Assembly: GCA_902812415.1 (NCBI GenBank)
Contig: CADDZJ010000039.1
Coordinates: 1 to 36,266 of the forward strand
Origin: Acidobacteriota bacterium
GTDB taxonomy: Bacteria; Acidobacteriota; Terriglobia; UBA7540
Direction: 5' to 3'
DNA length: 36,266 nucleotides
Position numbers and translations under genes: made by a program. A model generated the notes under the pieces. That model had not been told where the DNA came from. It did no database searches and saw nothing but the letters and a program-made list of their open reading frames with translations. Positions 6,171 to 34,856 of the stretch are shown here, one piece after another; the stretch's first letter is position 1, and each line of letters starts with the position of its first letter.

Positions 6171-6178
6171 GAGATTTC

Positions 6179-7475: not shown

Positions 7476-7576
7476 TTTGTTTTCAATAACTTACAAAGAC
7501 TCGCCATCCCTGCACACCAGCCGCTGCGCCCGACTGTGACCGGCAAGCTGCGAGTTAGCCACCTCACATCCGTCTC

Positions 7577-8404: not shown

Positions 8405-8480
8405 GCTCAGATTATGATGGACGTTTGCCGGATCGCGCCCGTTTCAGCGGCTGCCTGAGTGCGCAATCTGCCCTAAGACG

Positions 8481-8529
8481 AAATGCCGGGATTCTTCCGC
8501 TTCGCTGCGCTCAGCGTCAGAATGACAAG
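8481..8529 (-). repeat. Interspersed repeat family A, copy 3
   Basis: GGGATTCTTCCGCTTCGCTG continues into CGCTCAGCGTCAGAATGAC, the complement of the GTCATTCTGAGCG/GAATCCC arrangement at 1881-1920. It lies in the spacer between two minus-strand genes. Confidence 0.6.
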
Positions 8530-8557
8530 CGTCCATAATCGTTTTCCAGCAATTTGC

Positions 8558-13274: not shown

Positions 13275-13303
13275 AGATCAGCGATCAGCAGGATAATGCG
13301 GCG

Positions 13304-14857: not shown

Positions 14858-14931
14858 AGAGGATTTCCTCATTCAGCAGATTGACGATCGGCACGATTAT
14901 TTTGAGTACTGTTATTCCCAATCCTTTACTT

Positions 14932-14992
14932 GTCATCCTGACGCCGGGCGCAGCGAGGCGGAAGGCTCCTCCTCTTTCGCTCAGAATAGACT
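14932..14992 (+). repeat. Interspersed repeat family A, copy 4
   Basis: TTGTCATCCTGACGCCGGGC, then GCAGCGAGGCGGAAGGCTCC and TTTCGCTCAGAATAGA: a diverged unit with the same GTCAT-CCTGA and GCTCAGAAT ends as the other family A copies. It lies in the tkt-zwf spacer. Confidence 0.5.
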
Positions 14993-15013
14993 CTGCGCGA
15001 AATCTGGACGGCG

Positions 15014-15088
15014 GTGATGAATGACAAGCAAAGGCAAATAGAAACTCGAATTAATTCTTTGCTTAACAAATCACTCGTCACTCATCAC
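15014..15088. repeat. Interspersed inverted repeat family B, copy 2
   Basis: GTGATGAATGAC (15014-15025) and TCACTCGTCACTCATCAC (15071-15088) are imperfectly complementary. The GCAAAG/CTTTGC pair lies inside, and a T6 run follows at 15090. It sits just downstream of tkt, on the side of zwf. Confidence 0.55.
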
Positions 15089-15141
15089 TGTTTTTTCTAA
15101 CTTCTCGGACTAACAGCTTGCAGGTGTTTTTCAGCAATCTG

Positions 15142-17187: not shown

Positions 17188-17549
17188 GGAACTGCTCCTC
17201 CGGCTGAAATTTTAGCTGTGCGTTTGAATCTCTCTCTCACGTCGAGGTCTCGATGCCTGTTACCGACGAGGTGATAAAGACCTCTTATGGTCCGTCCACT
17301 CGGGACCCGTTTTGTAGAACCTAATTCATTAATATACTCCCCTGAGCTAAGCGATAAAAGCTCCCCGCGCTGCTTCGGTTAGGTGAGGCAAATGATGCGG
17401 CTTAGAGCCGGGCTTCCGCCCTTCTTTTCCACCTCCGCTGCGACAGCCAGTCCGCCGTCATGCCTTTTTCCGACTTCTGCTATTGAGATGTTTTGATATG
17501 CTGATAAGGTTCAAAGAGGAACTCTGAAGCGTAAACGGAAGGATAGCTT
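17188..17549. other. Divergent tkt / gnd intergenic region
   Basis: A 362-base spacer that must contain the start signals of both divergent pentose-phosphate genes. GAGGTCT (about 17243) and AGACCTC (about 17278) form an inverted repeat that could be an operator. GGAAGGA (17537-17543) is the gnd Shine-Dalgarno, six bases from its ATG. No well-spaced -35/-10 pair could be assigned with confidence. Confidence 0.4.
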
Positions 17550-19661: not shown

Positions 19662-21449
19662 GTGATTTTGCGCGTGCTGTTGGCGGTTCTTGTTGCGGCT
19701 TCGTCGGGCTGGGCATTCCAAACGCCGGATGGGGCTGCCATTTTTCAACAACACTGTGATGTGTGCCATCGGAAGGGCAGCGGGACACGGGCGCCGTCGA
19801 CTGAGGTGCTTCAGCAGATGTCGCGCGACTCGATTGTGCAAACTCTCGAAACCGGCGTTATGAGAGAACAAGGCGCCAAACTGACCCCTGCGGAGCGACA
19901 AGCGGTGGCGGCGTATCTTTCCCATGCTAAAGCTCCCGTCTCAAGCACTCGCCCTGGTTTTTGCGCCGTAAAATCCGATCCCCTGCTTGATGATCCCGGC
20001 TGGAACGGCTGGGGAGTTGATGTTGCGAACAGCCGCTTTCAGCCAGCGGCAGTGGCAGGGCTCAGCCGCAATCAAATCCCGAAACTGAAACTCAAGTGGG
20101 CCTTTGGCTTTCCAGGGGCTTGGGCGACGTTTGGCCAGCCGACGGTGTTTGGAGGACGCGTTTTCGCGGGCAGCGAAGATGGCACGGTTTATTCACTTGA
20201 TGCGCGAACGGGTTGTATCTACTGGACGTTTAGAGCCCCCTCCACCGTCAAGACGGCTGTCACCATCGGGTTCGGAGGCCGCATCGCCTATTTTGGCGAC
20301 GTGAGCGGCAACATCTATGCCGTGGATGCCGCCAACGGCTCGCTCTTGTGGAAAGTTCACGTTGATCCGCACCCCACAGCGCGCATTACAGGATCCCCGG
20401 TCCTTTTCGATGGTCGGCTTTACGTCCCCGTCTCTTCGGGCGAGGAGGGTGCGGCGATGGACCCCAGGTATCCGTGTTGCACTTTCCGCGGCAGCGTCGT
20501 GGCCCTCGATGCGCAGACAGGCAAACAGATTTGGAAGGCCTACACCATTCCGCAGCCGGCTCACCCAACCATGCGCAGCACCGCAGGGGTGCAAATGTGG
20601 GGGCCTTCCGGAGCAGCGGTGTGGTCGCCGCCCACTATTGATCCAAAACGACGCGCGATCTATGTAGCGACCGGCAACGGCTATTCTGACCCCCCTAGCC
20701 CCTATTCGGATGCGGTCATTGCATTTGATCTGGACTCCGGCAAAATGCTTTGGTCACAACAACTTACGCCGAGTGACCGCTGGAATATTGCATGCATCGC
20801 ACCGACCAAGGCGAACTGTCCTGATAATCCGGGGTCTGACTTTGATTTTGGATCGCCACCGATTCTCAAAACGCTGCCAGATGGACGCCGCCTGCTGATT
20901 GCGGGGCAGAAGTCCGGCGTAATCTACGCGCTCGACCCTGACCAGCAAGGCCGGATCGTTTGGCAAACACGGATCGGCAAAGGTGGGCCGCTTGGAGGAA
21001 TTCAATGGGGCGGCGCGGCGGACAAGAAACGGGTTTATTTCCCATTGTCCGATTGGAATGACTCGAATCCGGCCATGGGAGGAGGACTATTTGCTCTGCA
21101 AGCTGCTACAGGAAAGAAAGCCTGGTACGCGCCTCCTCCCAAGCCGGATTGCCTCAAGCAAGTCGGCTGCAACGCCGCACAGATGGCGCCAGTCACCGTC
21201 ATTCCCGGTGTTGTGTTTTCCGGCTCGCAAGATGGCCATTTGCGCGCCTATGATGCTCGAACCGGAAAAGTGATTTGGGATTTTGATACCCTGCAGGAAT
21301 TCAAGACGGTGAACGGAGCGGAGGCCCACGGCGGATCGATGAACGCTACGGGCCCTGCCATCGTTAACGGCATGCTTTATGTGGATGCAGGCTATACGAA
21401 CGGCGTGGCCGGTAACGTCTTGCTTGCATTTTCGGTAGATGGAAAATGA
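19662..21449 (+). CDS. Cytochrome c / PQQ-type beta-propeller dehydrogenase
   Basis: A 595-residue exported protein: signal peptide (MILRVLLAVLVAASSGWA), then a short class I cytochrome c domain with heme motif CDVCH (32-36) and a probable axial Met near 67. The remainder is an eight-bladed quinoprotein-like propeller with repeated W-blade patterns such as GTVYSLDARTG, GNIYAVDAANGSLLWK, GSVVALDAQTGKQIWKAY and GHLRAYDARTGKVIWDF. This arrangement resembles polyvinyl-alcohol dehydrogenase, a periplasmic PQQ enzyme passing electrons to its own heme. The substrate cannot be inferred. The GTG start at 19662 follows AGAGGA. A nearby upstream ATG (19639) runs into a stop. It stands alone as a transcription unit. 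Confidence 0.85.
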   Translation: MILRVLLAVLVAASSGWAFQTPDGAAIFQQHCDVCHRKGSGTRAPSTEVLQQMSRDSIVQTLETGVMREQGAKLTPAERQAVAAYLSHAKAPVSSTRPGFCAVKSDPLLDDPGWNGWGVDVANSRFQPAAVAGLSRNQIPKLKLKWAFGFPGAWATFGQPTVFGGRVFAGSEDGTVYSLDARTGCIYWTFRAPSTVKTAVTIGFGGRIAYFGDVSGNIYAVDAANGSLLWKVHVDPHPTARITGSPVLFDGRLYVPVSSGEEGAAMDPRYPCCTFRGSVVALDAQTGKQIWKAYTIPQPAHPTMRSTAGVQMWGPSGAAVWSPPTIDPKRRAIYVATGNGYSDPPSPYSDAVIAFDLDSGKMLWSQQLTPSDRWNIACIAPTKANCPDNPGSDFDFGSPPILKTLPDGRRLLIAGQKSGVIYALDPDQQGRIVWQTRIGKGGPLGGIQWGGAADKKRVYFPLSDWNDSNPAMGGGLFALQAATGKKAWYAPPPKPDCLKQVGCNAAQMAPVTVIPGVVFSGSQDGHLRAYDARTGKVIWDFDTLQEFKTVNGAEAHGGSMNATGPAIVNGMLYVDAGYTNGVAGNVLLAFSVDGK

Positions 21450-21565: not shown

Positions 21566-21595
21566 TTGACAAAGCCCGAATCGCGTCGATAACAT
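21566..21595 (+). promoter_or_regulatory. Candidate sigma70-type promoter of the lipid gene cluster
   Basis: A perfect -35 TTGACA (21566-21571) and TAACAT (21590-21595) are separated by 18 bases, 205 bases before the first lipid gene. No gene or repeat was found elsewhere in the 21450-21800 spacer. Confidence 0.5.
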
Positions 21596-21800: not shown

Positions 21801-23372
21801 TTGACTGACATAGACCAAACATTCCGCGAGCATGAACTCCTTTTCACCGGGGCCAACGGCTTCCTGGGCAAAGTCATCCTCGCGCTTCTTCTGGATCGAT
21901 TTCCAAATTTCAGGCACTTGCACATCCTGTTGCGTCCGAGCGGAGAGTTGCCGCCTGCCGAGCGATTTTTCAAAGACGTACTCAACTCGCCTGCGCTGGC
22001 CTCCGTTACAGAGCACAGGGGCGACGGGTTTCCGCGCAACAGGATCAGCATCTGGTCCGGAGACATCAGCGCGCCTGATTGTGGTCTGGAACCGGAAGAT
22101 ATCGACCGCATGGCTGGCCGCGTAGACCTGATTCTCAACTGCGCTGGCCGTGTGGACTTCTTCCCCGCCATCGATGATTCTTTCAGCTCCAACGTGGACG
22201 GCGTCGAAAACATCGCCGATTTGGCGAAGCGCCTGGGCGCCAAACTGTTGCATGTCTCCACCGCTTTCGTCTGCGGCGAGGCCGACGGGCTGATTGAGGA
22301 GTCCGAACCAATTCTGGGTTACTATCCCCACCGCCGCGGTCCGGACGATCGAAGTTTTGATCACCGCGAGGAATTGCGTCACGTACGCGAATTGATTCGC
22401 CAGATCTACGAATCAAGTGACGCCAATCGCCGTGAGGATCGGGCGCGCCGCTCCCGTGAACTGGTCCAGCGATTGGTCGCTCTGGGAAAGCAGCGGGCCG
22501 CGAATTGGGGATGGGTGAATACTTACACTTACTCCAAGAGCCTGGGAGAGCAGATTATCCAGGCGGCGGAAGGCCTCGATTCTGCCATCGTGCGTCCGGC
22601 CATTGTGGAAAGCGCCTGGCGATTCCCTTTCCCGGGATGGATTGAAGGCGGGCGCACCGCAGCTCCTCTAGTCTTGATGGCGTTGGGCGGGCTGAAAGAT
22701 TGGCCGGTGCGGGAAGACGCTCCGCTTGAAGTCATTCCGGTGGATATGGTCGCATCGGCCATCCTCACAGTTTCAGCGCTCTTGCTTCAAAATCGCCACG
22801 AGCTGGTTTATCAGCTTGGCTCTGCGGACATGAATCCCTTCCCGCTTGGCAGTATCGTGACCCTGCTGGATGCTGAAGCCCGCAAACGCAAGAACGGAGA
22901 AGAAGTCTGGAGTCGCGGCTTGACCGATTGGCTCGCCGGAATGCGTCGCGGCTCCCGCATCCGTTTTGTGTCGTCTGAGGAGGCACAGAATCGACGGCTG
23001 AAATTACGAAGAGATATTGCCCGCGCTGAGCGCTGGCTCTCAGGAGCCGGGCGCGTTCTGGAAAAAATGGGTTTGCCGGGAGAGCGCTGGATGGGAGGCT
23101 TTAACACCGAATTGCGCAAACTCGACCTTCAGGCGAAATTCCGGGAGCAAACCCTGGACCAGTACCTTCCCTTTGTGCTCCAAAATCGATACATTTTTGA
23201 ATGCGAGAATATCCGCATCGCACACTCAATGCTTTCCAAGGCAGATCAGGAGTTGCTGCCGTGGCGCCCGGAAAATATTAACTGGAAGGAGTATTGGACA
23301 AAAAACCAGATCGAAGGCATTGAAAATTGGGTCCAGCCGGAAGCCGTGCGTGAGTGGACTTTCAAAATCTAG
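21801..23372 (+). CDS. Fatty acyl-CoA reductase-like SDR (male-sterility NAD-binding family)
   Basis: The 523-residue protein has an extended-SDR Rossmann start, LLFTGANGFLGKVILALLL (about 13-31). The ILNCAGRVDFFP segment and the active-site YTYSKSLGEQI (Tyr-xxx-Lys) follow, then VRPAIVESAWRFPFPGWIEG, all typical of the NAD_binding_4 family (PF07993) that reduces acyl-thioesters to aldehydes or alcohols. A basic helical C-terminus (about 400-500) has no motif I recognise. The start is TTG at 21801 with GAGGAG about 11 bases upstream; the true start may be a few codons away. First gene of the lipid cluster. It likely reduces the acyl chain loaded by the next gene product (inference). Cofactor NADPH or NADH not determined. 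Confidence 0.8.
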   Translation: MTDIDQTFREHELLFTGANGFLGKVILALLLDRFPNFRHLHILLRPSGELPPAERFFKDVLNSPALASVTEHRGDGFPRNRISIWSGDISAPDCGLEPEDIDRMAGRVDLILNCAGRVDFFPAIDDSFSSNVDGVENIADLAKRLGAKLLHVSTAFVCGEADGLIEESEPILGYYPHRRGPDDRSFDHREELRHVRELIRQIYESSDANRREDRARRSRELVQRLVALGKQRAANWGWVNTYTYSKSLGEQIIQAAEGLDSAIVRPAIVESAWRFPFPGWIEGGRTAAPLVLMALGGLKDWPVREDAPLEVIPVDMVASAILTVSALLLQNRHELVYQLGSADMNPFPLGSIVTLLDAEARKRKNGEEVWSRGLTDWLAGMRRGSRIRFVSSEEAQNRRLKLRRDIARAERWLSGAGRVLEKMGLPGERWMGGFNTELRKLDLQAKFREQTLDQYLPFVLQNRYIFECENIRIAHSMLSKADQELLPWRPENINWKEYWTKNQIEGIENWVQPEAVREWTFKI

Positions 23373-23484
23373 ACGGGCTTTGGAGCCGCGTGGAAGACCA
23401 AAAGATGCGCCCTTCGTTTTATAAAGCGGCTTTATTCGATGAAAGCCGCGTTATTAACAGGTTGCCGAGAAATAATTACGGCCA

Positions 23485-23631
23485 CTGTCATTCCGAGCCC
23501 CTCGCTTGTCATTCTGAGCGCAGGCGAGGAATCCCCGTGTTTCCGCTCAAGGGTAAACTCCGCGAGGAATCTCGCTCTGCAATAAAGATCATGCGAGATT
23601 CCTCTTCGCCTGCAGTTCCTCGGAATGACAG
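23485..23631. repeat. Interspersed repeat family A, copy 5 (large inverted repeat)
   Basis: CTGTCATTCCGAG (23485-23497) and CTCGGAATGACAG (23619-23631) are perfect 13-base inverted arms. Inside, GCAGGCGAGGAATC and GATTCCTCTTCGCCTGC form a second, imperfect inverted pair. The element fills much of the 304-base spacer between the reductase and the ACP-adenylating fusion, so the transcript would carry a long hairpin there. Confidence 0.75.
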
Positions 23632-23676
23632 GATGCAAGGGTTCTTCAGTTTCCTTTCAAATTGTAGTCGTCAGTT

Positions 23677-26529
23677 ATGATGCCAACTCTTCCTAAACAG
23701 GTGGAAGCTGCCTCCGTGGAAGGTCAAATCCTGGAGGTTGTGCGCGAGCTTCTGCTGGAGCTTGGTTCGGTGCGGGCGGCGGAAAGCCTCACGATGGATT
23801 CGTTGCTCGACCGCGACCTGGGGTTGGGCAGCCTTGAGCGTGTTGAGCTTCTGGTGAGGTTGGAAGCGCGCTTCAAAATTCGTCTGCCGGAAGAGGCGGC
23901 GCAAGAGGCTGAGACGCCGGCAGATTGGGCCCGAACGATCTTCGATGGAACCCGGCCCTCCAGCCGAAGCGAGCGTTACCGCATCGTTCAGCCTTCGCGG
24001 GATGCTCCCGAAGCGCCCGCCTCCGCAAAAAGCTGGCCTGAAGCGCTTCGCCACCACGCGCAGATCGAGCCAGACCGTGTGCAGATTCATCTTCTGGAAG
24101 AAGATTCCGGCCGCGACATCACTTACGGACAATTGCTTGAGACGGCCTCAAGGGTGGCAGCCGGGCTGATTGACGCCGGTTTACAGCGGAACGACACCGT
24201 GGCGATCATGCTGCCCACATGCGCCGATTTCTTCTATGCCTTTTTCGGCGTCATGTTGGCGGGCGGCATTGCGGTTCCCATCTATCCTCCGGCGCGGGCC
24301 GATAAGATTGAGGAATACGTTCGCCGCCAGGTCCTGATCCTGAAGAATGCGGAAGTCCGCTTCCTGATCAGTTTTGATCGTGTTCGCGCGGTTTCCCAGA
24401 TCATGCGAGTGAGCATCCCGAGTCTTCTGGAAGTAACCAGCGTCGAGGCTTTGTGCCGGTCTGGTGCGAAGCCGCCCTCCCGTGGCCTTGAACCCTCTGA
24501 AATCGCTTTTATCCAATACACCTCTGGCAGCACGGGTGATCCCAAAGGAGTGGTGCTGACCCATGCAAACGTGCTGGCCAACGTGCGCGGCATTGGCTGG
24601 TCTGTGAACTTTCGCCCGGATGACTACGTGGTCAGTTGGCTGCCTCTCTACCACGATATGGGCCTGATCGGTTCCTGGCTTTTCAGCGTCTATCATGGCG
24701 CGCCGATCACGGTGATGTCGCCGCTCGCATTTTTGAGCCGCCCTGAGCGCTGGCTCTGGGCCATGCACGATTCACGAGGCTCGCTTTGCCCGGCGCCCAA
24801 TTTTTCCTACGAATTGTGCGCCCGGAAAATTCCGGACGAAGCGATTGAAGGACTCGACTTAAGCCGCTGGCGCGTGGCGATTAATGCGGGCGAAGCCGTA
24901 TTGCCTGATACTCTGACGCGCTTTGCCGCCCGCTTCAAACCCTACGGGTTCCGCGCTGAGAGCTTTGTGCCCTGTTACGGGCTGGCCGAATCCTCCGTGG
25001 CGCTCACGTTTACGCCTATGAACCGGGCTCCGGTGATTGACGTCATCCGTCGCGATCTTTTTGAGGCGGAAGGCAAAGCAGAGCCCGCAGGGGAGGGCAA
25101 GAACAACGTGCTGCGATTCGTTGCCAATGGCCGCCCCATGCCCGGCCACGAGGTGAAACTCCTGGATGATCAGGGCCGGGAATTAGGGGAGCGCGTCCAG
25201 GGCCGCATCTTCTTCCGCGGCCTCTCGCGCACTGCCGGCTACTATCGCAATCCTAAGGCCACCGCCGCGGTCATCACGTCGGATGGCTGGATGGATTCCG
25301 GCGATCTGGGTTATTGGGCGAATGGGGAACTTTACGTCACAGGCCGCCTGAAAGATTGCATTATCAAGTCAGGGCGCAACATCATCCCGCAGGAAATTGA
25401 GGCGGCGGCGGCGGAAGTTCCGGGCGTCCGTAAAGGTTGCGTGGCGGCTTTCGGCGCCCTCGACCCGCAAACCGGCACCGAGCGGCTCGTGGTGGTGGCG
25501 GAAACACGCGCGAAGGCGTCGGATGAGCTAGAGCGCATAGAAGAAGGAATTATCAGGAGTGTCGATTCCGTCCTGGGAATTCCGCCAGACAAGGTGGCGC
25601 TGGTTGCCCCGCAAAGCATCCCCAAAACCAGCAGCGGGAAAATTCGCCGAACGGCAACGCGCGCGCTTTACCTTGAGGGCCGGCTTTCGGGACGTAAACG
25701 CCCACCCTGGATGCAGATTGCGCGCCTGTGGCTCGAGAATCTGGGAAACGGGTTCACGCTCTTTCGCCGGAAGGCCGTGGCTTGGGTGCATCGGGCATCC
25801 CGGCATTCCTATTTTGCCGCCTTGGCCTATCTTGGCGGCACGATGGCCCGCGTTGCAGGCGGGAAGGGAGCCTCTGCTTTCATCATCCGGGTCACGGCTC
25901 GTTGTATCTTGCGCTGGGGCAACCATCAGATTCATCTTGTGAAGAGATCGGAAGTCCCCACGGGCAAGCCAGCCATCTTAATGGCCAATCGCGCTGGGCA
26001 TTTGGATCCGCTCGTCGCGGCGGCGCGCATTCCGTTTCCATTTCGTTTTGCGGATGGGGCAGTGCTTGGCGAACTTCCCTCGCCAGCCGCGTTCCTTCTG
26101 CGGACGCTTGTCGCTTCCCCCCTGGGTGAGCATCGAGAGCCGCCAGGTGGAACCATGCGTCAGCGAATTGAGCGTTGCTTGAAGGGGCAATTGAGCGTGG
26201 TAGTGCTTCCGGAAGGGCCGGTCGGCGCTCCTCCGGCGCGCTCACGCTTCCGGCTGGACGCGCTACATGCGGCTCTTGACACAACCAGCCCCATTTATCC
26301 GGTTTTATTCCATGGGACTGAAGGGCTGGCGTGGCCGGATCGGAAATCGGAAGCGAGAACGCATAGCTCTGAGATCGGGATGGACGGTTCGGATGTCGAT
26401 GCCGCCAGTAACAGTCGGTCTCCGCAAGTTATTATCGGTGAAGCGATCCGCCCCTCGGCGCACAGCCATTATGATATGATCCAGCTACGTGAGCGCATCC
26501 GTGAAGCGCTGGCAAAGCTGTCGCGCTAA
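23677..26529 (+). CDS. ACP / fatty-acid-adenylating / PlsC-like acyltransferase fusion
   Basis: The 950-residue protein has three parts. Residues 15-88 are an acyl-carrier domain with Ser52 in DLGLGSLERVEL, the expected phosphopantetheine site (usually DSL, here GSL). Residues 110-690 are an ANL adenylating domain of the fatty-acyl-AMP-ligase type: YTSGSTGDPKGV (281-292), WLPLYHDMGLIG, INAGEAV, CYGLAESS, GDLGYW, and catalytic Lys655 in TSSGKIRR. Residues 760-950 are a PlsC-like acyltransferase with LMANRAGHLDPLV and VVLPEGPVGAPPARSRFR. In motif I the catalytic His of NHx4D is Arg772 (Asp777 is present), a single-base difference (CGC versus CAC). The enzyme could activate a fatty acid onto its own ACP for the upstream reductase. 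No clear Shine-Dalgarno precedes the ATG. Confidence 0.87.
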   Translation: MMPTLPKQVEAASVEGQILEVVRELLLELGSVRAAESLTMDSLLDRDLGLGSLERVELLVRLEARFKIRLPEEAAQEAETPADWARTIFDGTRPSSRSERYRIVQPSRDAPEAPASAKSWPEALRHHAQIEPDRVQIHLLEEDSGRDITYGQLLETASRVAAGLIDAGLQRNDTVAIMLPTCADFFYAFFGVMLAGGIAVPIYPPARADKIEEYVRRQVLILKNAEVRFLISFDRVRAVSQIMRVSIPSLLEVTSVEALCRSGAKPPSRGLEPSEIAFIQYTSGSTGDPKGVVLTHANVLANVRGIGWSVNFRPDDYVVSWLPLYHDMGLIGSWLFSVYHGAPITVMSPLAFLSRPERWLWAMHDSRGSLCPAPNFSYELCARKIPDEAIEGLDLSRWRVAINAGEAVLPDTLTRFAARFKPYGFRAESFVPCYGLAESSVALTFTPMNRAPVIDVIRRDLFEAEGKAEPAGEGKNNVLRFVANGRPMPGHEVKLLDDQGRELGERVQGRIFFRGLSRTAGYYRNPKATAAVITSDGWMDSGDLGYWANGELYVTGRLKDCIIKSGRNIIPQEIEAAAAEVPGVRKGCVAAFGALDPQTGTERLVVVAETRAKASDELERIEEGIIRSVDSVLGIPPDKVALVAPQSIPKTSSGKIRRTATRALYLEGRLSGRKRPPWMQIARLWLENLGNGFTLFRRKAVAWVHRASRHSYFAALAYLGGTMARVAGGKGASAFIIRVTARCILRWGNHQIHLVKRSEVPTGKPAILMANRAGHLDPLVAAARIPFPFRFADGAVLGELPSPAAFLLRTLVASPLGEHREPPGGTMRQRIERCLKGQLSVVVLPEGPVGAPPARSRFRLDALHAALDTTSPIYPVLFHGTEGLAWPDRKSEARTHSSEIGMDGSDVDAASNSRSPQVIIGEAIRPSAHSHYDMIQLRERIREALAKLSR

Positions 26530-26560
26530 ACACATTACTTGCAGCGAGTGGGATGACGAA

Positions 26561-27196
26561 ATGGCCTCTATTTTTTTGCGGATTCTGATCTGTTTTGTTT
26601 TAGGCTCCATCCCCTTTGCTGTATTAGCCATGGCAGGGTCGGGGATCGACATCCGCAAGGTGGGGTCCGGCAATCCGGGATTTAACAATGTCCTTCGCGT
26701 CAGCAAAGGCCGCGCCGTGGTCGCCCTGCTGGGTGATATGGGAAAGGGGATTGTCGCGCTCCTTCTGGCCTACCACACTGCGGATCCCGTCTGGCAGGGA
26801 TGGGTCTTCGGCTTCGCGGCTATTGTGGGACATTGTTATTCTCCTTGGCTGAAGTTCAAAGGGGGAAAGGGCATTGCGACTTCAGCCGGCGTGATGTTGG
26901 TGCTTTATCCGCTCTTCGCGGTGATATCCCTCATTTACTTTGTCGTGGCGCGCGTGTTTGGCAGCAAAGTGATGGAATGGAAAGAGGCCGGGGCGATCGC
27001 GTCGCTCTCTTCCTGGCTCCTCTTTGTGCTGCTCATGATTTTCTTCCGGAGCAATACGGATGCGCTCTGCGCGGCGGGCATCGCAGCGTTTCTCTTCTGG
27101 CGCCATAAAAAAAATCTCCGGCATATTTTTGCTTACAAGATGAGAGCGCCCGTTCCGAGCCAGTCGAGGCGCTCCTCGGTGATGGACCGCGACTGA
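26561..27196 (+). CDS. PlsY-like glycerol-3-phosphate acyltransferase
   Basis: A 211-residue polytopic inner-membrane protein with the two PlsY signatures: KVGSGNPGFNNVLRVSKGR (usual form GSGNxGATNVxR) and GHCYSPWLKFKGGKGIATSAG. At least four hydrophobic helices are visible. PlsY transfers acyl groups from acyl-phosphate to glycerol-3-phosphate. FNN replaces the usual ATN in the first motif, so a specialised donor or acceptor is possible. The ATG at 26561 gives the usual PlsY N-terminus; a longer in-frame start at 26489 overlaps the preceding gene and adds 24 unlikely residues. It follows the ACP-adenylating fusion by 31 bases. Whether the genome has another plsY cannot be seen. Confidence 0.85.
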   Translation: MASIFLRILICFVLGSIPFAVLAMAGSGIDIRKVGSGNPGFNNVLRVSKGRAVVALLGDMGKGIVALLLAYHTADPVWQGWVFGFAAIVGHCYSPWLKFKGGKGIATSAGVMLVLYPLFAVISLIYFVVARVFGSKVMEWKEAGAIASLSSWLLFVLLMIFFRSNTDALCAAGIAAFLFWRHKKNLRHIFAYKMRAPVPSQSRRSSVMDRD

Positions 27197-27364
27197 AGCG
27201 CAACGGCGTTGAGCAGTGATCGAGATTGTTGGCAACTCTGAACGCTTCCGGCTGACGGTTCACAGTTCGCCTTCGACAGCCCTTTCCTTCTGAAATCGAG
27301 GGCTATTGCGATTGAATTCGAGCGCCGGGAATTGTCGGATTGCTGCTGAAGTTCCCTCTTTGCT

Positions 27365-28090
27365 ATGTCTGACTCCAAACGAATCGCGTTTTATGATTTC
27401 GACGGAACGCTGGTTTCAAGCAACATCGTCACCCGATATGCATTTCTTGTTCGTCACCTGCCATCGCGAGCCAGGGTGGTCTGGAAATTTTCCAGGCTGG
27501 TAGCCAGCGTTCCGACCTATCTTCTATTGAATCGATACTCGCGTCGTCTTTTTAATGAAACTTTCTTTCGCGAATATGGCGGAATAAAGAAAGCGTGGCT
27601 CGAAGAGCAGGGTGAGTTGCTGTTTGAAGAAGTGATTCGGCCCAGCATCTATCCGGGTGCGAAAGCGCTGGTGGAGAGAGATCGTGAACAGGGCTTTTAT
27701 CTGGTGTTGGTCACAGGTGAGCTGGACTTTGCGTTGGGTCGGGCAGCCCGTTATTTTGGATTCGACCAACTCGTTTGCAATTCCCTAGTTTTTGAGAACG
27801 GCGTTGCCACGGGAAAGGTGGCCGAGCCGCTGATTGCAGAGGAGGAGAAGGTAAAAGCGATGTCCCGAATCTGCAAAGCCCGGGGAGTGAGCCTGACCAA
27901 AGCCAAAGCATATTCGGACAGCTTTTCGGATGCGTCCATGCTGGAAGCGGTCGGCATGCCTGCGGCGGTGAATCCCGACGGGCGGCTGAGAAAGTTGGCA
28001 ACCCTGCGCGGCTGGCCCGTGCTCGATCTGAAAAATCCGAGCAGTTCTCCCATTGCGACGGTGCGAGGAAACCATGTCCACATATCTTGA
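27365..28090 (+). CDS. HAD-IB family phosphatase (SerB-like)
   Basis: The 241-residue protein has the HAD nucleophile motif FYDFDGTL (Asp11, Asp13), LVTGE as motif II, and YSDSFSDASMLEAVG as the Asp-containing motif IV, the layout of subfamily IB. Members dephosphorylate phosphoserine or lipid-related phosphates, and in actinobacteria HAD-IB domains are fused to PlsC acyltransferases, which fits this neighbourhood. It may dephosphorylate the acylated glycerol-phosphate made upstream (inference). A 168-base gap separates it from plsY. Its 3' end overlaps the next gene by 17 bases, implying translational coupling. Confidence 0.82.
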   Translation: MSDSKRIAFYDFDGTLVSSNIVTRYAFLVRHLPSRARVVWKFSRLVASVPTYLLLNRYSRRLFNETFFREYGGIKKAWLEEQGELLFEEVIRPSIYPGAKALVERDREQGFYLVLVTGELDFALGRAARYFGFDQLVCNSLVFENGVATGKVAEPLIAEEEKVKAMSRICKARGVSLTKAKAYSDSFSDASMLEAVGMPAAVNPDGRLRKLATLRGWPVLDLKNPSSSPIATVRGNHVHIS

Positions 28091-29771
28091 CGCGCCTCAT
28101 GCGGCGCTTGAGCGGCTTCTGGAAGCGGCGGACCCGGCGCCCAATGCGGTGGGCCGCAACGCTTTGGTTTCTTCAGAGGGATGTGTGGTCCATCTCGAAA
28201 AAAACTCTGCGCCGCGACTGATGTGGTACGGCGAGGACCTGTTGCAGGTGAAAATGCCTGCGGGCACCCGCGTGGTTTACCCCAGGCCGACCATCCGTCC
28301 TCTGCGCGACCGGAATGCGGCCATTCGCTTCGCCCTGGCTCATCCGGAAGGTATGGAACCTCTTGAATCTCTGCTCAAGCCCGGCATGAAGGTGACCATT
28401 GCCATCGATGATATCTCGTTGCCGTTGCCTCCCATGAAGCGTCCGGACATCCGCCAGTCGGCGCTGACGATCCTGCTGGAAATGCTCGCCTCCAAGGGAA
28501 TTGAAGATTTCCACATCATTATCGCAACCTCTTTTCACCGGCGGATGACTCCTGCGGAAATCAAGCGCGCTGTCGGCTCGCGCATTTTTCACGCTTATTA
28601 CCCCGATCGCCTTTATAACCATGACGGTGAAGCTCCTGACGGCATGGTGGAGTTGGGAGCGACAGACCACGGCGAACGCGTCCGCATCAACCGCCGCGCA
28701 GCAGAATCCGATCTCCTGATTTATGTGAATATCAATCTGGTGCCGATGGATGGCGGCAACAAGTCCGTGGGCGTGGGCCTTTGCGATTATCCCGCGCTTC
28801 AGGCGCACCACACGCCGCAGACCATTCTGGAATGCGATTCTTATTTTGACCACACGCGTTCGGCGATGAGCCGTTCCTGCGATCGCGTGGGGAAGATCAT
28901 CAATCAGCATCTGAAGGTGTTTCATCTCGAGACCGTGCTGAACAACGCCATGTTCGATCCCCGCATGGCTTTCTTCGTTAAAAATGAAGACCATCATTCG
29001 TCTTACGATCGCATGATGTTTGCGCTGGCGCGGGCGGGCCTGCGCAGTCTTCCCCGCGCAACGAAAAGGAAACTGCTCTTTGCGATTCCGGCTTCCTATG
29101 AAATGATCGCGGTCCATGCCGGAGCTACCTTGCCGGTGCATGAAAAAACTCTGGCTTACTGCTATGCCCAGTATTGCGTGCCGGTCGAGGGACAGTCGGA
29201 CGTTGTCGTCTACGGCATTCCCTTCATCTCGCCCTACAATGTGAACTCCATCCTCAACCCTCTTCTGGTGCAGGTGATGGCGCTCGGCTATTTCCATAAC
29301 ATGTATCGGGGCATGCCGGTGGTGAGGAAAAACGGCGTGCTCATCCTGACTCATCCGCTTTACGATGAGTTTGACCCGCTCCACCATCCGTCTTACATCG
29401 AGTTCTTCCACCGCCTGCTGCCGGAAACACGCGATTCATTTGAATTGCAGCGCAAATACGAGGCTGAGTTTGCCCGGAACCCTGAATACATCCGGATGTA
29501 TCGCACGGGCAACGCCTATCACGGCGTGCATCCGTTTTACATGTGGTACTGGGGCGAAAATGGCCGGGCGCACGTGGGCAAAGTGATTTGCGCGGGGGCG
29601 GAATCAAAGCGCGCTGCGGAGTTGATGGGGTGGGATACGGCGCCCAACATGGAAGAAGCCCTGGCTATGGCCGAATCACACATCGGGCACAAGCCCAGCG
29701 TCACCTTGATGCACTTTGCACCTATTCTGATGGCCGATGTCGGAACTGCGCCGCAGCGCGAGTCTTTGTAA
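28074..29771 (+). CDS. LarA-like (DUF2088) protein, putative nickel-pincer-type racemase
   Basis: The 565-residue protein carries an N-terminal DUF2088 domain (PF09861) like lactate racemase LarA. Visible are IAIDDISLPLPPMKRPDIR, His155 in ATSFHRRMTPAEIK, RLYNHDGEAPDGMVELG, and Lys230 in PMDGGNKSVGVGL, near where LarA Lys184 attaches the pyridinium pincer cofactor. The mid and C-terminal regions (about 260-565) are rich in His, Tyr and Trp and show no family I know. It is longer than LarA (about 420 residues). No larB/C/E cofactor genes are in the window. The ATG at 28074 has GAGGAA four bases upstream and overlaps the HAD gene. The substrate may be a 2-hydroxy-acid-like lipid intermediate, a guess. 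Confidence 0.75.
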   Translation: MSTYLDAPHAALERLLEAADPAPNAVGRNALVSSEGCVVHLEKNSAPRLMWYGEDLLQVKMPAGTRVVYPRPTIRPLRDRNAAIRFALAHPEGMEPLESLLKPGMKVTIAIDDISLPLPPMKRPDIRQSALTILLEMLASKGIEDFHIIIATSFHRRMTPAEIKRAVGSRIFHAYYPDRLYNHDGEAPDGMVELGATDHGERVRINRRAAESDLLIYVNINLVPMDGGNKSVGVGLCDYPALQAHHTPQTILECDSYFDHTRSAMSRSCDRVGKIINQHLKVFHLETVLNNAMFDPRMAFFVKNEDHHSSYDRMMFALARAGLRSLPRATKRKLLFAIPASYEMIAVHAGATLPVHEKTLAYCYAQYCVPVEGQSDVVVYGIPFISPYNVNSILNPLLVQVMALGYFHNMYRGMPVVRKNGVLILTHPLYDEFDPLHHPSYIEFFHRLLPETRDSFELQRKYEAEFARNPEYIRMYRTGNAYHGVHPFYMWYWGENGRAHVGKVICAGAESKRAAELMGWDTAPNMEEALAMAESHIGHKPSVTLMHFAPILMADVGTAPQRESL

Positions 29772-29798
29772 GTTGGTGGAAAACGCGAATGGACGCTA

Positions 29799-29880
29799 TC
29801 ATTCCGAGTGAAGCGAGGGATCTCGCCCTGCAAGTAAAAGACTTGTGAGATTCCTTGTCGCCTTCGGCTCCTCGGAATGA
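29799..29880. repeat. Interspersed repeat family A, copy 6
   Basis: TCATTCCGAG (29799-29808) and CTCGGAATGA (29871-29880) are perfect 10-base inverted arms with GAAGCGAGGGATCTCGCC and GAGATTCCTTGTCGCC between them. It occupies the spacer between the LarA-like gene and the following SDR. Confidence 0.75.
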
Positions 29881-29986
29881 CGGATCGTAAGAGTTTTTCA
29901 GCAAACTATGGGATGTTCAATCGTTGACGGACTGCCGTTTTCCTCGCCGGCCGAAGATGCCGCACGATGACCTGCCGCTCTCATTC

Positions 29987-30976
29987 ATGAAAATCATCCT
30001 CATTACAGGCGCCACGGGTTTTCTGGGTCAACACCTTGTCGAGCAACTGAAAGCGCAGGAACACGAAGTCACCATCAGGCTGTTGTGTCGCGGCGGAACG
30101 CGCTTCGACGGCGAACCGCGCATTGAGATCGCCCGCGGCGACATTACGCGCGCTGAAGACGTGCTGCGCGCGGCGCAGGGAGTGAGCGAGATTTATCATC
30201 TGGCCGGAATCGTCTCCCGAGATTCTGCGGATCAGGAAATCCTCTATCGCACCCATATCGAAGGCACACGCCATACCTGCGAGGCGGCTCAGAAGTGCGG
30301 TGCGAGCAAGGTTGTCATGGTTTCCTCCTCCGGAACCATCGCCGTAGGCCGCGAGCCGATAGCCTATAATGAAGAGTCCGATTATAAGAACGGGATGGTG
30401 GCGGAGTGGCCTTATTACCTGAGCAAGATCTTTGCAGAAAAACTGGCCCTGGATTTTGCTCGCCGATATTCGTTGCCGATTGTCGTCGTTAATCCCAGTC
30501 TGATCCTGGGACCGGGGGATGATCGCCTGTCTTCGACCGGTGACGTGGCCCTGTTCCTGGAGGGCCAGATTCTGGCAATTCCTCGAGGTGGCCTGAATTT
30601 TGTGGACGCGCGCGATGCAGCGAGCGGCCTCATTGCCGCCATGCGCCACGGCCGGCCCGGCGAGCGGTACTTGCTGGGCGGCGCGAATTGGACCTTTCAT
30701 GAATTGATCGAAAATGTGGCGCGACTCTCCCGCCGCCCGGTTCCAAAGTTTGAGCCCTCGCTGAAATTTTCGCTTTGGAGCGCGCGCCTGTTGCGGCGGC
30801 TCTTCCCGCTGGTTGGCAAGTCATTCCGGCTGGATGACGCTTCCATCAAAATGTCGGCTCTGTTCTGGTACTGCGATTCCACCAAAGCCCGCAGAGAGCT
30901 TAGCTTCAGAACGCGCGATCCGTTGGAAACTCTGCGCGACACGGTGGAAGACCTTCGCGCGCGGCTCCGAACATAG
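29987..30976 (+). CDS. NAD-dependent epimerase/dehydratase-like extended SDR
   Basis: A 329-residue protein with a Rossmann start MKIILITGATGFLGQ (TGATGFLG, 7-14), IYHLAGIVSRDS, VSSSGTIAVG and catalytic YYLSK (Tyr-xxx-Lys). VVNPSLILGPGD and NFVDARDAASGLIAAM are the substrate-binding segments seen in dihydroflavonol-reductase/hydroxysteroid-like SDRs. The first in-frame start is TTG at 29924, and ATG 29957 also lies upstream, but Met at 29987 begins the standard fold; none has a strong ribosome-binding site. It probably reduces or oxidises a lipid or hydroxy intermediate in this cluster (inference). Confidence 0.8.
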   Translation: MKIILITGATGFLGQHLVEQLKAQEHEVTIRLLCRGGTRFDGEPRIEIARGDITRAEDVLRAAQGVSEIYHLAGIVSRDSADQEILYRTHIEGTRHTCEAAQKCGASKVVMVSSSGTIAVGREPIAYNEESDYKNGMVAEWPYYLSKIFAEKLALDFARRYSLPIVVVNPSLILGPGDDRLSSTGDVALFLEGQILAIPRGGLNFVDARDAASGLIAAMRHGRPGERYLLGGANWTFHELIENVARLSRRPVPKFEPSLKFSLWSARLLRRLFPLVGKSFRLDDASIKMSALFWYCDSTKARRELSFRTRDPLETLRDTVEDLRARLRT

Positions 30977-31027
30977 CGACAGCCAAACGTTCGAAAACAT
31001 AAATCAGCGCGCTGCATCAATGAATCG

Positions 31028-32008
31028 ATGGCATCAACACGCAAAATCGCGGCTATCGTCAACCCTCATTCGGCGGGCGGCAGGACCGGCAAAAGATGGT
31101 TGTCGATGGCCCGTCGTCTGGAAGATAAATTGGGGCCTATCACGGCGCGGTTTACGGAACGAAGCGGTCACGCCATCGAATTGACCCGCGAACTGCTCGG
31201 ACAGGGATTTGATTTGATTGTTGGAGTAGGCGGGGATGGGACATTTAATGAAATCGCCAACGGCTTTATGGCCGGAGACCGGTTGGCGTGTCCTGCCGCT
31301 TGCATGGGGATTCTCCCCACCGGAACGGGAGGCGATTTTCAGCGCATGTTCGGGTTTTCAGCGCGCCGCGGGCCGGAGGACGCCATCGAAACCCTGATCA
31401 CGGGCGAGCCTGTCTTGATCGACCTCGGCAAGGTGAAGTATACCCGCCACGATGGCGAGCCTGCCGAACGGTACTTCGTGAATCTGGTCAGCTTCGGAAT
31501 GGGTGGAGCGGTGGCGGCGGGGGCGAAGAATTTTCTGGTTCCGCTGGGCGGGAAATTTGCCTTTCTGTGGAGCACGTTTCGCGTGCTTTTAAGTTATCGA
31601 GGGAAAAACGTGCAGCTTGGCATTGACAGAAACAAGCCTGCGGCCTATCGCGTGACTAACGTTGCAATTGGCAACGGGCGTTTCCACGGCGGCGGGATGC
31701 ATCCTTGCCCGACAGCCATGATGGATGACGGCATTCTGGAAGTCACGGTGATCGAATACATGAATATGTTCCAACTTCTCCGCGACATCCGCGTGCTTTA
31801 CTCCGGTGAAATCTATATGCACCCCAAAACGCATCATTTCCAAGGCGCGCGAATCGAAGCCAGGGCTGAATCTCCCACAGCCATAGAAGTGGATGGCGAG
31901 CCGCTCGGCAGATTGCCGGTCGAGATCACGATTTTGCCGCGGAAGTTACCTGTGATGGTGAATCCGTCGAGTTTCCAGAAAGGGTCTTTACTTCGCGCCG
32001 AAGGGTAA
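31028..32008 (+). CDS. Diacylglycerol-kinase-like lipid kinase (YegS/DgkB family)
   Basis: The 326-residue protein has the diacylglycerol-kinase catalytic signature: IVNPHSAGG (10-18), VGVGGDGTFNEIANGF (GGDGT at 68-72), PTGTGGDFQRMFG and the C-terminal EVDGEPLG that contributes to the second domain. Such soluble kinases phosphorylate diacylglycerol, ceramide-like or other membrane lipids with ATP. It ends the seven-gene lipid cluster, 51 bases after the SDR. The gene overlaps the convergent TPR gene by 21 bases at its 3' end, which is unusual without an intervening terminator. The lipid acceptor cannot be determined from sequence. Confidence 0.88.
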   Translation: MASTRKIAAIVNPHSAGGRTGKRWLSMARRLEDKLGPITARFTERSGHAIELTRELLGQGFDLIVGVGGDGTFNEIANGFMAGDRLACPAACMGILPTGTGGDFQRMFGFSARRGPEDAIETLITGEPVLIDLGKVKYTRHDGEPAERYFVNLVSFGMGGAVAAGAKNFLVPLGGKFAFLWSTFRVLLSYRGKNVQLGIDRNKPAAYRVTNVAIGNGRFHGGGMHPCPTAMMDDGILEVTVIEYMNMFQLLRDIRVLYSGEIYMHPKTHHFQGARIEARAESPTAIEVDGEPLGRLPVEITILPRKLPVMVNPSSFQKGSLLRAEG

Positions 32009-33475
32009 ACGCAGGCCGGATTGAACGGCAGCCAGCGCTTCGGGAAATGTCGCTGCCGTCACCGAGGCAGCGCGGTATTGCTTCAGGGCATCATCCCGCC
32101 GATCTTCCAGATCGTAGATCCGTCCCAGGTAGATATGGGACCACGTCACAATCCGCAGGTTGTGAGCGACGGCTAAGGTCTTTTTAAAATACTCCTCTGC
32201 GATATCCGGCTCCTGGGTGTTGCTGGCGGCGATGGCAAACCCGAATAAGGCCCGTTCGCTTTTAGGATCATATTTTTCAAGCACCTGCTTGAAGACTGCC
32301 TTGGCCTGGTCATATTGCCCGAGGTAAATGAAATTGTCTCCCTGATCGAGGAGATGATCCTTTTCACTGGGCGCCGGAGCGGCCGCCACTTTAGGCGCTG
32401 GCTTGGGAAGAGCAAAGTGAACGTCCGCCAGCGTTTTCTCCATCTTCTTCAGATTAATTCCCTGGATCATCTGCTGGTAGTAGACGCTCATCGGGCTGTC
32501 CTGCTTCTCATACTCCTCGAGGGCGCTATAAAAGTAGGGAGTCAGAATCAGGCCGGAGGCGAGGTCATTCGCCGCCTGCTGAGGCGCGTCTTTAGGCTTA
32601 TCCATCCGCAATTCAACGGCGTGGATCAGGCATTCCGTCACCAGCAACGAGTAGTCGTTTTTAAAATCCTGCCCCAGCGCCGGCGCCTTGCGGGCGATAG
32701 CCTGTAAGGGCGCCTTCTGGTGGATGTCTGCCGCGTATTTCACCGCGAGCGGGTCAAGCAGAAAGTGCAGATATTGATGCCGGATTTCCTTGAATCGCGG
32801 CTGGGTTGAAGGCGTGATCACCAGGTAATAGTTTTCACCATAAATGCGGGCCTGCACCTGCTCCGGAACCCCGAGCAGGCACAAATAAATGTGATAAGTT
32901 CTGCCCAGGTAAGTTCCGCTCGGAAAACGCAAGTAGGCGTCGGCCAGCGCAATATCCCTGCGGATGGTTTCTGAATACTGCCCGATTGCTTCCATGTACC
33001 TGGGCCGGAACTGGGCGTAGAGACCCTCAATATCCGCTTCCCGATAAAATGCGCGCAGCAAAGGCACAAGATTGCGGAGGTCGCTGGCGTCGGGCGGAAG
33101 GTCTTCTTTGGGAATCGTAAAGTTGAATTTTGGAGGCGAGTCCAGAAGCAGCGCGAGCGAGACATACTGCCCGAAATCCGCGCCGGGGTCATCCGCGCGA
33201 TGGCCCTCGTAGAATTTCGCAATCTGAGGCAAAACCGGAGTCTGCTTCCTGGCAAGTTCGCTGCGAATTTCCTGCCGGATACTTTCATCGGCCTTGGCGT
33301 AAAGCCCCGTGTTATAACCTGCGGCGTTCAGCGCCGCCATGACCGTGAACAGCGTCTCGCTGGAATCAATGGTTACGCTAGCACTCGATTGCGCAAGACT
33401 GCAAAGGGGCGCCACCGCACACGCAAGCCAGAGTATTCCCGCTGAAATCAGAAGTGATCGAAATGGAAATCGCAT
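31988..33475 (-). CDS. Secreted TPR-containing protein of unknown function
   Basis: Starting at the ATG 33475, the product is 495 residues with a signal peptide (MRFPFRSLLISAGILWLACA, cleavage after LCSLAQ). A large helical region of unknown type follows. Near the C-terminus are at least two TPR-like units, GDNFIYLGQYDQAKAVFKQV and the HIYLGRIYDLEDRRDDALKQY stretch, separated by an IAEEYFKKTLAVA helix. A linker rich in Lys, Pro and Ala (LPKPAPKVAAAPAP) sits before them. A longer frame from TTG 33568 overlaps the anti-sigma stop but would bury the signal peptide. Third gene of the sigma/anti-sigma operon; it may be a target or partner, not shown. Confidence 0.7.
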   Translation of the reverse strand: MRFPFRSLLISAGILWLACAVAPLCSLAQSSASVTIDSSETLFTVMAALNAAGYNTGLYAKADESIRQEIRSELARKQTPVLPQIAKFYEGHRADDPGADFGQYVSLALLLDSPPKFNFTIPKEDLPPDASDLRNLVPLLRAFYREADIEGLYAQFRPRYMEAIGQYSETIRRDIALADAYLRFPSGTYLGRTYHIYLCLLGVPEQVQARIYGENYYLVITPSTQPRFKEIRHQYLHFLLDPLAVKYAADIHQKAPLQAIARKAPALGQDFKNDYSLLVTECLIHAVELRMDKPKDAPQQAANDLASGLILTPYFYSALEEYEKQDSPMSVYYQQMIQGINLKKMEKTLADVHFALPKPAPKVAAAPAPSEKDHLLDQGDNFIYLGQYDQAKAVFKQVLEKYDPKSERALFGFAIAASNTQEPDIAEEYFKKTLAVAHNLRIVTWSHIYLGRIYDLEDRRDDALKQYRAASVTAATFPEALAAVQSGLRLPFGAK

Positions 33476-33564
33476 CCTTTGAAGTCGAAGCGCAAAGAAT
33501 GTTACGAGGCTTTGGAGCGGAGATTCCCGGCAACCTCTGTGACGTGGGATTTTTGAGCGGGCCG

Positions 33565-34215
33565 TCAACCTCGAATGGTGATTTGTCTTAACGCAAGGAC
33601 TACTCTTCCATCCGTCGGCCGGCCAAACGCCATCGCGGGAGCGAAGCGGCTGAAGTAAATCATCCGGTCCAGATGACGCATCAGTTCGGGCGAATGCTGC
33701 CCGGAGAGCACCTTGTAGCTCATCACCTGCCCATCCGCATCAATGTACGTCACCACAATCAGAGGTTTATCGCCCATGCTGAAATCGAGCGGCGCCAGGG
33801 CTACAACCTGAGGCGGCGTGACAAAAGAAAGCGGCACATCCGGGATATTGTTGGGAGGCACAGCCTCCGATCCCATGATCAGACAAAAGCAAAGTATGGC
33901 TGCCGCCAGACCGCCCGTGGCAGGCAACAGCAGGCTGCGAAACTGGTTGTCCAGACGCACCCAAAGCCGGCCCAGTAAATTGCGATTCAGCTCCTGCGAG
34001 ATGCGCACCCTTAACCGCAAATCCGCTTCAGGCGGTACAGGAGAACGGGGCAAGGCGCGAAGCTCGCTTTTGAGCATTTGCGCTCGGTCAAGCTCTTCCT
34101 GGCATGGACCACAGTATCGAAGATGGTAGCGGATCGAGAGCAAAGCTTCCTGCGAGCACAACCCGTCAACATAATCCGAGAAGTGCTCCCGAATTTCGAG
34201 GCATGACTCAAACAT
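33565..34215 (-). CDS. Zinc-finger anti-sigma factor with periplasmic TonB-like tail
   Basis: The 216-residue protein begins MFESCLEIREHFSDYVDGL and has the anti-sigma zinc-finger pattern HLRYCGPC (His31, Cys35, Cys38). One membrane helix follows (LLLPATGGLAAAILCFCLIM, about 108-127). The region after it, with PLIVVTYIDADGQVMSYKVL and RFAPAMAFGRPTDGRVVLAL, resembles the TonB C-terminal fold (tentative). ATG 34215 is preferred: GAGG sits about nine bases upstream and partly overlaps the sigma gene's stop, so the two genes are coupled. An upstream start at 34248 would overlap sigma. It likely sequesters the neighbouring sigma factor at the inner membrane. Confidence 0.75.
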   Translation of the reverse strand: MFESCLEIREHFSDYVDGLCSQEALLSIRYHLRYCGPCQEELDRAQMLKSELRALPRSPVPPEADLRLRVRISQELNRNLLGRLWVRLDNQFRSLLLPATGGLAAAILCFCLIMGSEAVPPNNIPDVPLSFVTPPQVVALAPLDFSMGDKPLIVVTYIDADGQVMSYKVLSGQHSPELMRHLDRMIYFSRFAPAMAFGRPTDGRVVLALRQITIRG

Positions 34216-34226
34216 TTTCGCTGACC

Positions 34227-34856
34227 TCAGTTCTGAGGCGCCAGGCAACCCGCCAACCTTCGCCTCAGAAGTTCGCGTCCTCGTTTCAGGCGGGACTTCA
34301 CTGTTCCTTCCGCCACGCCCAAAATCTCCGCAATTTCTTCATACGAAAGGTCTTCGACCTCCCGCAAAACCACCACGGTGCGATAAGGCTCGGACAGGCT
34401 TCTGAGCGCCTGCGTCACCAATTGTCGCCTTTCAGTTTGCTCCACAAGCTCATAGGGTGTTTCAGAGGCTCGGGCAGCATCGGCCGTCACAGCCGGACGC
34501 TCATCATCCAGAGAACAAACCTCTCGCTGGCGCCGTCGAAACCAGCTTCGCCGGTAATTCAGCGCCTCGTGCACGGCAATACGGTAAATCCACGTCTTCA
34601 GGCTGCTGCCGTTATGGAACTGTTTGATTCCTCGAATAATTTTCACGAAAATGTTTTGCAATACATCCGCCGCATCGGATTCGTCCCGCATGATGTGACA
34701 GGCCATGTTGTAAATCGGGTTCCGGTAGATAGCCAGAAGGTATGCAAAAGCCTCCTCTGAGCCGGCGCGCAACTCTTCGATCAGGGTTGCCTCTTCCGCG
34801 TTCGCCGGAAGAACTCCGTCCAGCGGTACTGCTATCGAGCGAGCAATGTTTCCCAT
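34227..34856 (-). CDS. ECF-type RNA polymerase sigma factor
   Basis: The 209-residue product has the sigma-2 region (about 45-105) with YRNPIYNMACHIMRDESDAA, DVLQNIFVKI and LKTWIYRIAVHEALNYRR, and the sigma-4 helix-turn-helix (about 148-195) with YRTVVVLREVEDLSYEEIAE and VAEGTVKSRLKRGRELLR. It lacks regions 1 and 3, as ECF (RpoE-like) sigma factors do. It precedes the anti-sigma gene by 11 bases and shares transcription with it and a TPR protein. The signal it answers is unknown; the neighbouring RlpA-like gene may or may not be in its regulon. Confidence 0.93.
   Translation of the reverse strand: MGNIARSIAVPLDGVLPANAEEATLIEELRAGSEEAFAYLLAIYRNPIYNMACHIMRDESDAADVLQNIFVKIIRGIKQFHNGSSLKTWIYRIAVHEALNYRRSWFRRRQREVCSLDDERPAVTADAARASETPYELVEQTERRQLVTQALRSLSEPYRTVVVLREVEDLSYEEIAEILGVAEGTVKSRLKRGRELLRRRLAGCLAPQN

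Follow-up and report, generated by a model that had tools for sequence, protein, structure and literature searches.

The question raised by the window, a stretch of 36,266 nucleotides from the 4.84-Mb genome of an uncultured soil member of the Acidobacteriota (contig G000:C39 of genome G000, whose nearest named relative at this locus is a metagenome-assembled genome (MAG) of Acidobacteria subdivision 13), is which lipid is made by the cluster of seven co-directional genes at positions 21801-32008, and which enzyme in it would form the characteristic bond. The initial annotation had proposed an ether- or alkyl-glycerolipid pathway akin to the myxobacterial elb genes, and all seven open reading frames (ORFs) were found in place and in the families it had named. 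The cluster is, very probably, an ether-lipid operon of the elb type, and we regard a rearranged operon of that type, directed at 1-O-alkyl (ether) glycerolipids and working by the route proposed below, as the likely explanation of the whole. The pathway reading therefore stands, on other grounds than those first given, namely the match to the elb operon and a repeated exchange of genes for AGPS, the alkyl-DHAP synthase already known to form ether bonds, within the operon.

It is already known that elbA and elbE belong to the NAD-dependent epimerase family, that elbB encodes a HAD protein, elbC a protein of unknown function and elbD a FAR-ACS-ACP-AT protein (fatty-acyl reductase, FAR; acyltransferase, AT), and that ether lipids of Myxococcus xanthus fall when elbD or elbE is disrupted (PMC9131029). 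Relatives of the window LarA were collected from 80 named loci, among which those of Myxococcus, Corallococcus and Pyxidicoccus are arranged as SDR-HAD-LarA-[FAR-ACS-ACP-AT]-SDR, where SDR is a short-chain dehydrogenase/reductase. The window LarA-like gene (28053..29771, + strand, as all seven; LarAH14/15/16 type; likely start ATG 28074, overlapping the HAD gene directly upstream) reaches 808 bits with the NF052592 model (cut-off 740) versus 852 bits for its counterpart in M. vastator, where the next gene encodes a 1474-aa FAR-AMP-binding-ACP-AT protein, i.e., ElbD, and identity to ElbC is 56-61% in most myxobacterial and subdivision 4 rows. Upstream of it lies the ElbB counterpart, a HAD-IB phosphatase (27365..28090; TIGR01490 above cut-off; motifs DFDGT, VTGE and SDSFSD), and downstream an extended SDR (29924..30976; Epimerase family, HpnA/SdmB-like; TGATGFLG, YYLSK; likely start ATG 29987), which matches the Myxococcus ElbE gene with 255 bits, the best models being of HpnA/SdmB type in both. 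Judged from close relatives of M. xanthus and the described gene order, ElbC belongs to the LarA family, and the window's LarA-like protein corresponds to ElbC, its second SDR to ElbE. These two had been thought to have no place in known ether-lipid routes, which does not hold, since family and operon position both assign them; the supposed kinship to the elb genes gains support from the same matches and from operon order.

The counterpart of the N-terminal domain of ElbD is a separate FAR (21801..23372; NAD_binding_4, 1.3e-51, plus a Sterile C-terminus; TGANGFLG, and YxxxK as YTYSK), so that the window does not encode a single multidomain FAR-ACS-ACP-AT protein. Next comes a fusion protein (23677..26529) composed of a PP-binding acyl carrier protein (ACP, aa 34-88), an AMP-binding domain (5e-68, aa 122-671) and a PlsC-type acyltransferase domain (aa 754-877; weak Acyltransferase match, 4.9e-6). 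For the adenylating domain, which stands beside an ACP, the best models and solved structures are fatty-acyl-AMP ligases (FAALs), to which type the domain belongs. The likeness of this fusion to ElbD is looser than was suggested initially: FAR is separate, the order is ACP-FAAL-AT, and the adenylating domains match with only about 50-70 bits, being of different subfamilies. As an ortholog of ElbD, the fusion was rejected on adenylating subfamily and domain order. The HX4D motif of its acyltransferase domain is lost (NRAGHLD in the window versus NHxSxxD in active relatives); the aligned fusions of the window's family (f1) have Arg for His, while His is kept in ElbD, in a cyanobacterial stand-alone enzyme and in outgroup fusions. 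By this residue pattern the domain is probably inactive as an acyltransferase, which fits with the presence in the operon of PlsY, an acyl-phosphate:glycerol-3-phosphate acyltransferase (26489..27196; 8e-40; GSGNPG, SPWLKFKGGKG; likely start ATG 26561). The last gene encodes a YegS/DAGK-like lipid kinase (31028..32008; TIGR00147 above cut-off; GGDGT).

Gene order is conserved across relatives, as the initial annotation had asked to be surveyed. At named loci with enough flank, HAD is just upstream of LarA in 44 of 51, FAR or ElbD is near in 23 of 31 and ElbE is downstream in 36 of 44. Four arrangements occur: fused ElbD in myxobacteria and subdivision 4-like Acidobacteria (L050, L083, L161); FAR-[ACP-FAAL-AT]-PlsY-HAD-LarA-SDR-DAGK in many genomes of the window's family; HAD-LarA-FAR-SDR-DAGK in subdivision 18 and Sulfopaludibacter-type MAGs (L039, L041, L042), without adenylating or acyltransferase part and with PlsY on the other strand; and a window-type cluster without PlsY in a MAG labelled, provisionally, Acidimicrobiia (L035). 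Since all four keep HAD-LarA-FAR-SDR, this is the common core, and the adenylating and acyltransferase parts are exchangeable; the identical order in many relatives also rules out a chance juxtaposition. In other families of the class, remoter homologs of the fusion (G038, G041, G043, G049, G051, G058) have no FAR, LarA or AGPS nearby, so that the fusion alone was rejected as an ether-lipid marker. Three further loci were noted. In a Bryobacterales genome a HAD-LarA pair lies beside glycosyltransferases, with no FAR or ElbE nearby (L040, OX638379.1, 5791-11623). A Cyanobacteria-labelled MAG (L081, JAQBPE010000412.1, 6122-11686) encodes a stand-alone PlsC-type acyltransferase with HX4D intact, a FAAL-like protein and an ElbC-type LarA, as well as a 428-aa ORF for which no Pfam family was found and which overlaps a HAD match in another frame. 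A second FAR and ACP-FAAL copy, 70% identical to the window fusion and cut by the contig end, is present at L189 (G026:C15:216000-225559, 6046-9559) in a genome that already holds the full cluster.

The evidence that best points to the function of the module comes from family f1, examined together with one genome of sister family f2, where true AGPS was taken as 700 bits or more to a Myxococcus AGPS and LarA or AGPS fragments at contig ends were scored as present. Twenty-six genomes have the fusion: 22 with LarA, three with AGPS (G014, G019, G027), none with both and one with neither (G001, 77% complete, with contig ends). None of the 12 f1 genomes without the fusion has LarA or AGPS (Fisher p = 5e-9 for LarA or AGPS with the fusion, relatedness ignored), and the mutual exclusion of LarA and AGPS gives Fisher p = 0.0015 by genome and 0.011 by genus, again with relatedness ignored. 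In the three AGPS genomes no full-length LarA and no ElbB-type HAD was found; in the window genome AGPS was not found, its best match being 82 bits (GlcD-like length) versus 700 or more for true AGPS. On one 12.8-kb contig of G019 the order is FAR-[ACP-FAAL-AT]-PlsY-AGPS-classical SDR-DAGK, with AGPS-SDR at the exact position of HAD-LarA-ElbE in relatives, and its AGPS matches solved mammalian AGPS over nearly the full length (557 bits) with SHHHGVGK kept. In G027, AGPS and SDR stand between DAGK and PlsY, near the fusion. In the fusion tree G019 groups with two LarA-bearing genomes (97/94) and G014 with G027 elsewhere, so the tree favours a swap to AGPS in two separate lineages. Neither this swap nor the degenerate acyltransferase had been noticed in the initial annotation. 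In another family of the class, f4, two loci (L187, G054:C241; L188, G047:C11) show a further arrangement reminiscent of ether-lipid clusters, with PlsY, an ElbB-type HAD, FAR and AGPS but no LarA, and in the first also a classical SDR; as AGPS sits there with such a HAD, the phosphatase may work downstream of ether formation.

The swap within the operon suggests that HAD-ElbC-ElbE most likely does the job of AGPS plus a reductase, and because FAR is kept in G019, both modules probably start from one and the same fatty alcohol and deliver to the same enzymes downstream. To hypothesize, a fatty acid would be activated by the FAAL domain and loaded on its ACP, and FAR would reduce the acyl thioester to fatty aldehyde or alcohol; both steps follow from the families, and ElbD genetics in M. 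xanthus support the second. HAD-LarA-SDR would then join the alcohol to the glycerol backbone in place of AGPS and keto-reductase, a role assigned because AGPS and a classical SDR repeatedly replace the module within this operon. The resulting alkyl-glycerol phosphate may be acylated by PlsY together with housekeeping acyltransferases, and the YegS-type kinase may re-phosphorylate alkyl- or diradylglycerol that has lost its phosphate. Altogether, we infer an ether-lipid product, a FAR-derived alcohol common to both modules, and ElbC as the ether former.

That ElbC is the ether-forming enzyme of the module is a hypothesis to which we give, at best, even chances. In it, the C2 carbinol of an acyl-glycerol(phosphate) would lend a hydride to the nickel-pincer nucleotide (NPN) cofactor of ElbC, C1 would thereby become exchangeable as in the AGPS reaction, and the hydride would go back to the same face once the alcohol has replaced the acyl group, a scheme that would need one catalytic histidine instead of two. 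The AlphaFold2 model of the window LarA (mean pLDDT 82.5) best matches the single-histidine LarA structures 9q3k and 9q3j. In 18 homologs, drawn from Acidobacteriota, Myxococcota and Planctomycetota, there is no variation at H162 (the first catalytic His), K237 (the NPN lysine) and H252/H253 (the Ni ligand), and since the genome encodes LarB, LarC and LarE above curated cut-offs, the cofactor can be made; the residues and the maturation genes of an NPN enzyme are thus all there. The second catalytic His, of the pair that marks a LarA 2-hydroxyacid racemase, is absent in 18 of 18 rows. Racemisation calls for an acid-base group at each face, while a hydride borrowed from and returned to one face needs a single group, and for this reason one catalytic His fits, without proving, an AGPS-like substitution. 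The same 18 rows have Leu, Val or Met at the position of an Arg that in Isosphaera LarA contacts both the carboxylate of the substrate and the phosphate of NPN (residue roles from PMC12611868 and PMC11851776). We propose, tentatively and somewhat short of even odds, that ElbC is an NPN-dependent ether synthase acting by hidden-redox substitution, a non-homologous replacement of AGPS.

Several points weigh against this interpretation. The independent swaps are just two, in MAGs that are 86-94% complete, and the rejection of a single AGPS clade (p-AU 0.023) is a moderate test that was run after the tree had been seen. Among 396 genomes sampled across the phylum (both cut-offs 500 bits), 39 have LarA of ElbC type and 17 have AGPS, and seven hold both, which is more than expected by chance; Myxococcus also has both, in the elb operon and in a separate AGPS-[FAR-AT]-SDR operon (L150). 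The f4 genomes keep an ElbB-type HAD beside AGPS, so that HAD is not strictly tied to LarA, and the HAD-LarA pair occurs without FAR nearby at 10 loci, some of them on short contigs. Knockouts of M. xanthus in the literature implicate ElbD and ElbE, and no report of an elbC knockout was found. Known LarA enzymes act, to our knowledge, on 2-hydroxycarboxylates, and we know of no LarA that makes ethers. Exclusion of LarA and AGPS as a general rule was rejected on the seven genomes with both; one stands in for the other inside a given operon, and a genome may still have both.

The strongest competing explanation, possible although clearly below even chances, keeps the ether-lipid product and places ElbB and ElbC in a side step, in which they might, e.g., isomerise a 2-hydroxy acid or a precursor of the head group or remove its phosphate, with the ether bond coming from ElbE, FAR or another enzyme and the AGPS operons following a different scheme. 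It agrees with LarA relatives of known function being 2-hydroxyacid racemases or epimerases (PMC11770544, PMC7583248), with the lowering of ether lipids on ElbE disruption (PMC9131029) and with the HAD-LarA pairs that have no FAR nearby, but ElbC lacks the carboxylate-binding residues and the second His, and FAR, fusion, PlsY and DAGK all stay when AGPS and SDR replace HAD-LarA-ElbE in two lineages. As these four are retained through the swap, the whole module should supply what AGPS supplies. It is unlikely that the fatty alcohol ends up in a product of another kind, such as a wax ester, a glycolipid or a storage lipid: the FAR, FAAL-ACP and acyltransferase-like domains could serve a pathway to wax esters or to modified lipids as well, and no ethers were detected in Pontiella despite its ElbD homologs (PMC11868695), yet ether glycerolipids are favoured by the ElbB, ElbC and ElbE matches, by the AGPS found within the operon in relatives, by the degenerate state of the acyltransferase and by PlsY and DAGK, both enzymes of glycerolipid metabolism. 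Equally improbable is that any ether bonds are due to a Ger/PlsA-type enzyme that reduces esters and is encoded at another locus, the cluster having another role; such enzymes were proposed for S. usitatus (PMC10087280), and the window genome encodes, outside the cluster, a 1235-aa BcrAD_BadFG-DUF2229 protein that is not distinguishable from ordinary activases, but within f1 the presence of this domain family shows no visible correlation with that of the cluster, genomes of both kinds having it, and the family also occurs in control genomes, e.g., Lactococcus lactis, so that DUF2229 is uninformative as a Ger marker.

As for expression, the promoter-like TTGACA-18-TAACAT noted initially 5' of FAR is present (21566..21595, + strand, 10/12 matches) and ranks first among the five such sites of the region, where shuffled sequence expects 4.6 +/- 2.2; because such sites are no commoner here than in shuffles, it is weak evidence, and as evidence for an operon it was set aside. 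FAR and LarA are each followed by an intergenic gap, of about 300 and about 215 bp respectively, in which lies a copy of a repeat (23583..23649 and 29835..29901, both + strand, 75% identical to each other), and with these gaps and repeats inside the cluster a single transcript of all seven genes is not established. The repeat, of about 67 bp with CTCGGAATGAC ends, resembles a palindromic extragenic element. Directly 5' of FAR a PQQ-type beta-propeller protein with an N-terminal cytochrome c domain is encoded (19662-21449), and further upstream a pentose-phosphate group, a source of NADPH (12531-18956), with 6-phosphogluconolactonase, glucose-6-phosphate dehydrogenase and transketolase on the - strand and 6-phosphogluconate dehydrogenase on the + strand. 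Just 3' of the cluster, on the opposite strand, are a TPR protein and a zinc-finger anti-sigma-like protein (31988-34248).

AGPS-independent synthesis of ether lipids in aerobic bacteria has been a puzzle since the elb discovery, and it is debated which enzyme forms the ether bonds in the iso-diabolic lipids of Acidobacteria and in branched glycerol dialkyl glycerol tetraethers (brGDGTs) (PMC10087280, PMC11868695, PMC13274423); brGDGTs are widely used climate proxies. Published surveys look for fused ElbD, and Acidobacteria with a split FAR (the window's family, subdivision 18, Sulfopaludibacter) may thus be under-counted. The module swap singles out ElbC, whose cofactor is known and whose proposed reaction can be put to the test. 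Should the proposal be true, ElbC would fill the missing step of AGPS-independent synthesis in aerobes, the LarA superfamily would gain its first reaction other than an isomerisation, and a large orphan subfamily, whose LarAH14 of Frankia showed no activity (PMC7583248), would acquire a function. Our literature search, which did not reach the original elb paper, returned nothing linking LarA or NPN enzymes with ether lipids.

Compared with known systems, the window shares with Myxococcus elb the HAD, the LarA-family ElbC, the FAR, ACP, adenylating and acyltransferase domains, the extended SDR and the HAD-LarA-...-SDR order; unlike there, where ElbD is one protein, FAR is separate and the ACP-FAAL-AT fusion has a degenerate acyltransferase, ElbA is missing, PlsY and DAGK are present, and FAR and fusion lie upstream of HAD. 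Elb clusters in Acidobacteria were already known from subdivision 4 (PMC10087280, PMC11868695), which like the window have ElbB-ElbC-ElbE and an ElbD, but in the fused myxobacterial form (L083, L085, L161), while the window family has the split FAAL variant. With the AGPS route (MXAN_1676-1674; peroxisomal FAR1/GNPAT/AGPS) it has in common a FAR, an acyltransferase and an SDR around the ether-forming step, and in operons of close relatives AGPS replaces HAD-LarA-SDR; the window genome differs in having no AGPS. LarA_Sp and LarA_Bw (PDB 9q3k, 9q3j) have the same fold, NPN lysine, Ni-ligand His and single catalytic His with the second lost; they carry Asn at the second position, retain a Lys in place of the Arg that contacts carboxylate and phosphate, and presumably belong to carbohydrate contexts, whereas the window LarA keeps neither Asn nor Lys in that form and stands in a lipid context. 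The cluster is therefore best described as a rearranged elb-type operon, a variant with ElbD split into FAR and ACP-FAAL-AT, with a potentially new enzyme activity.

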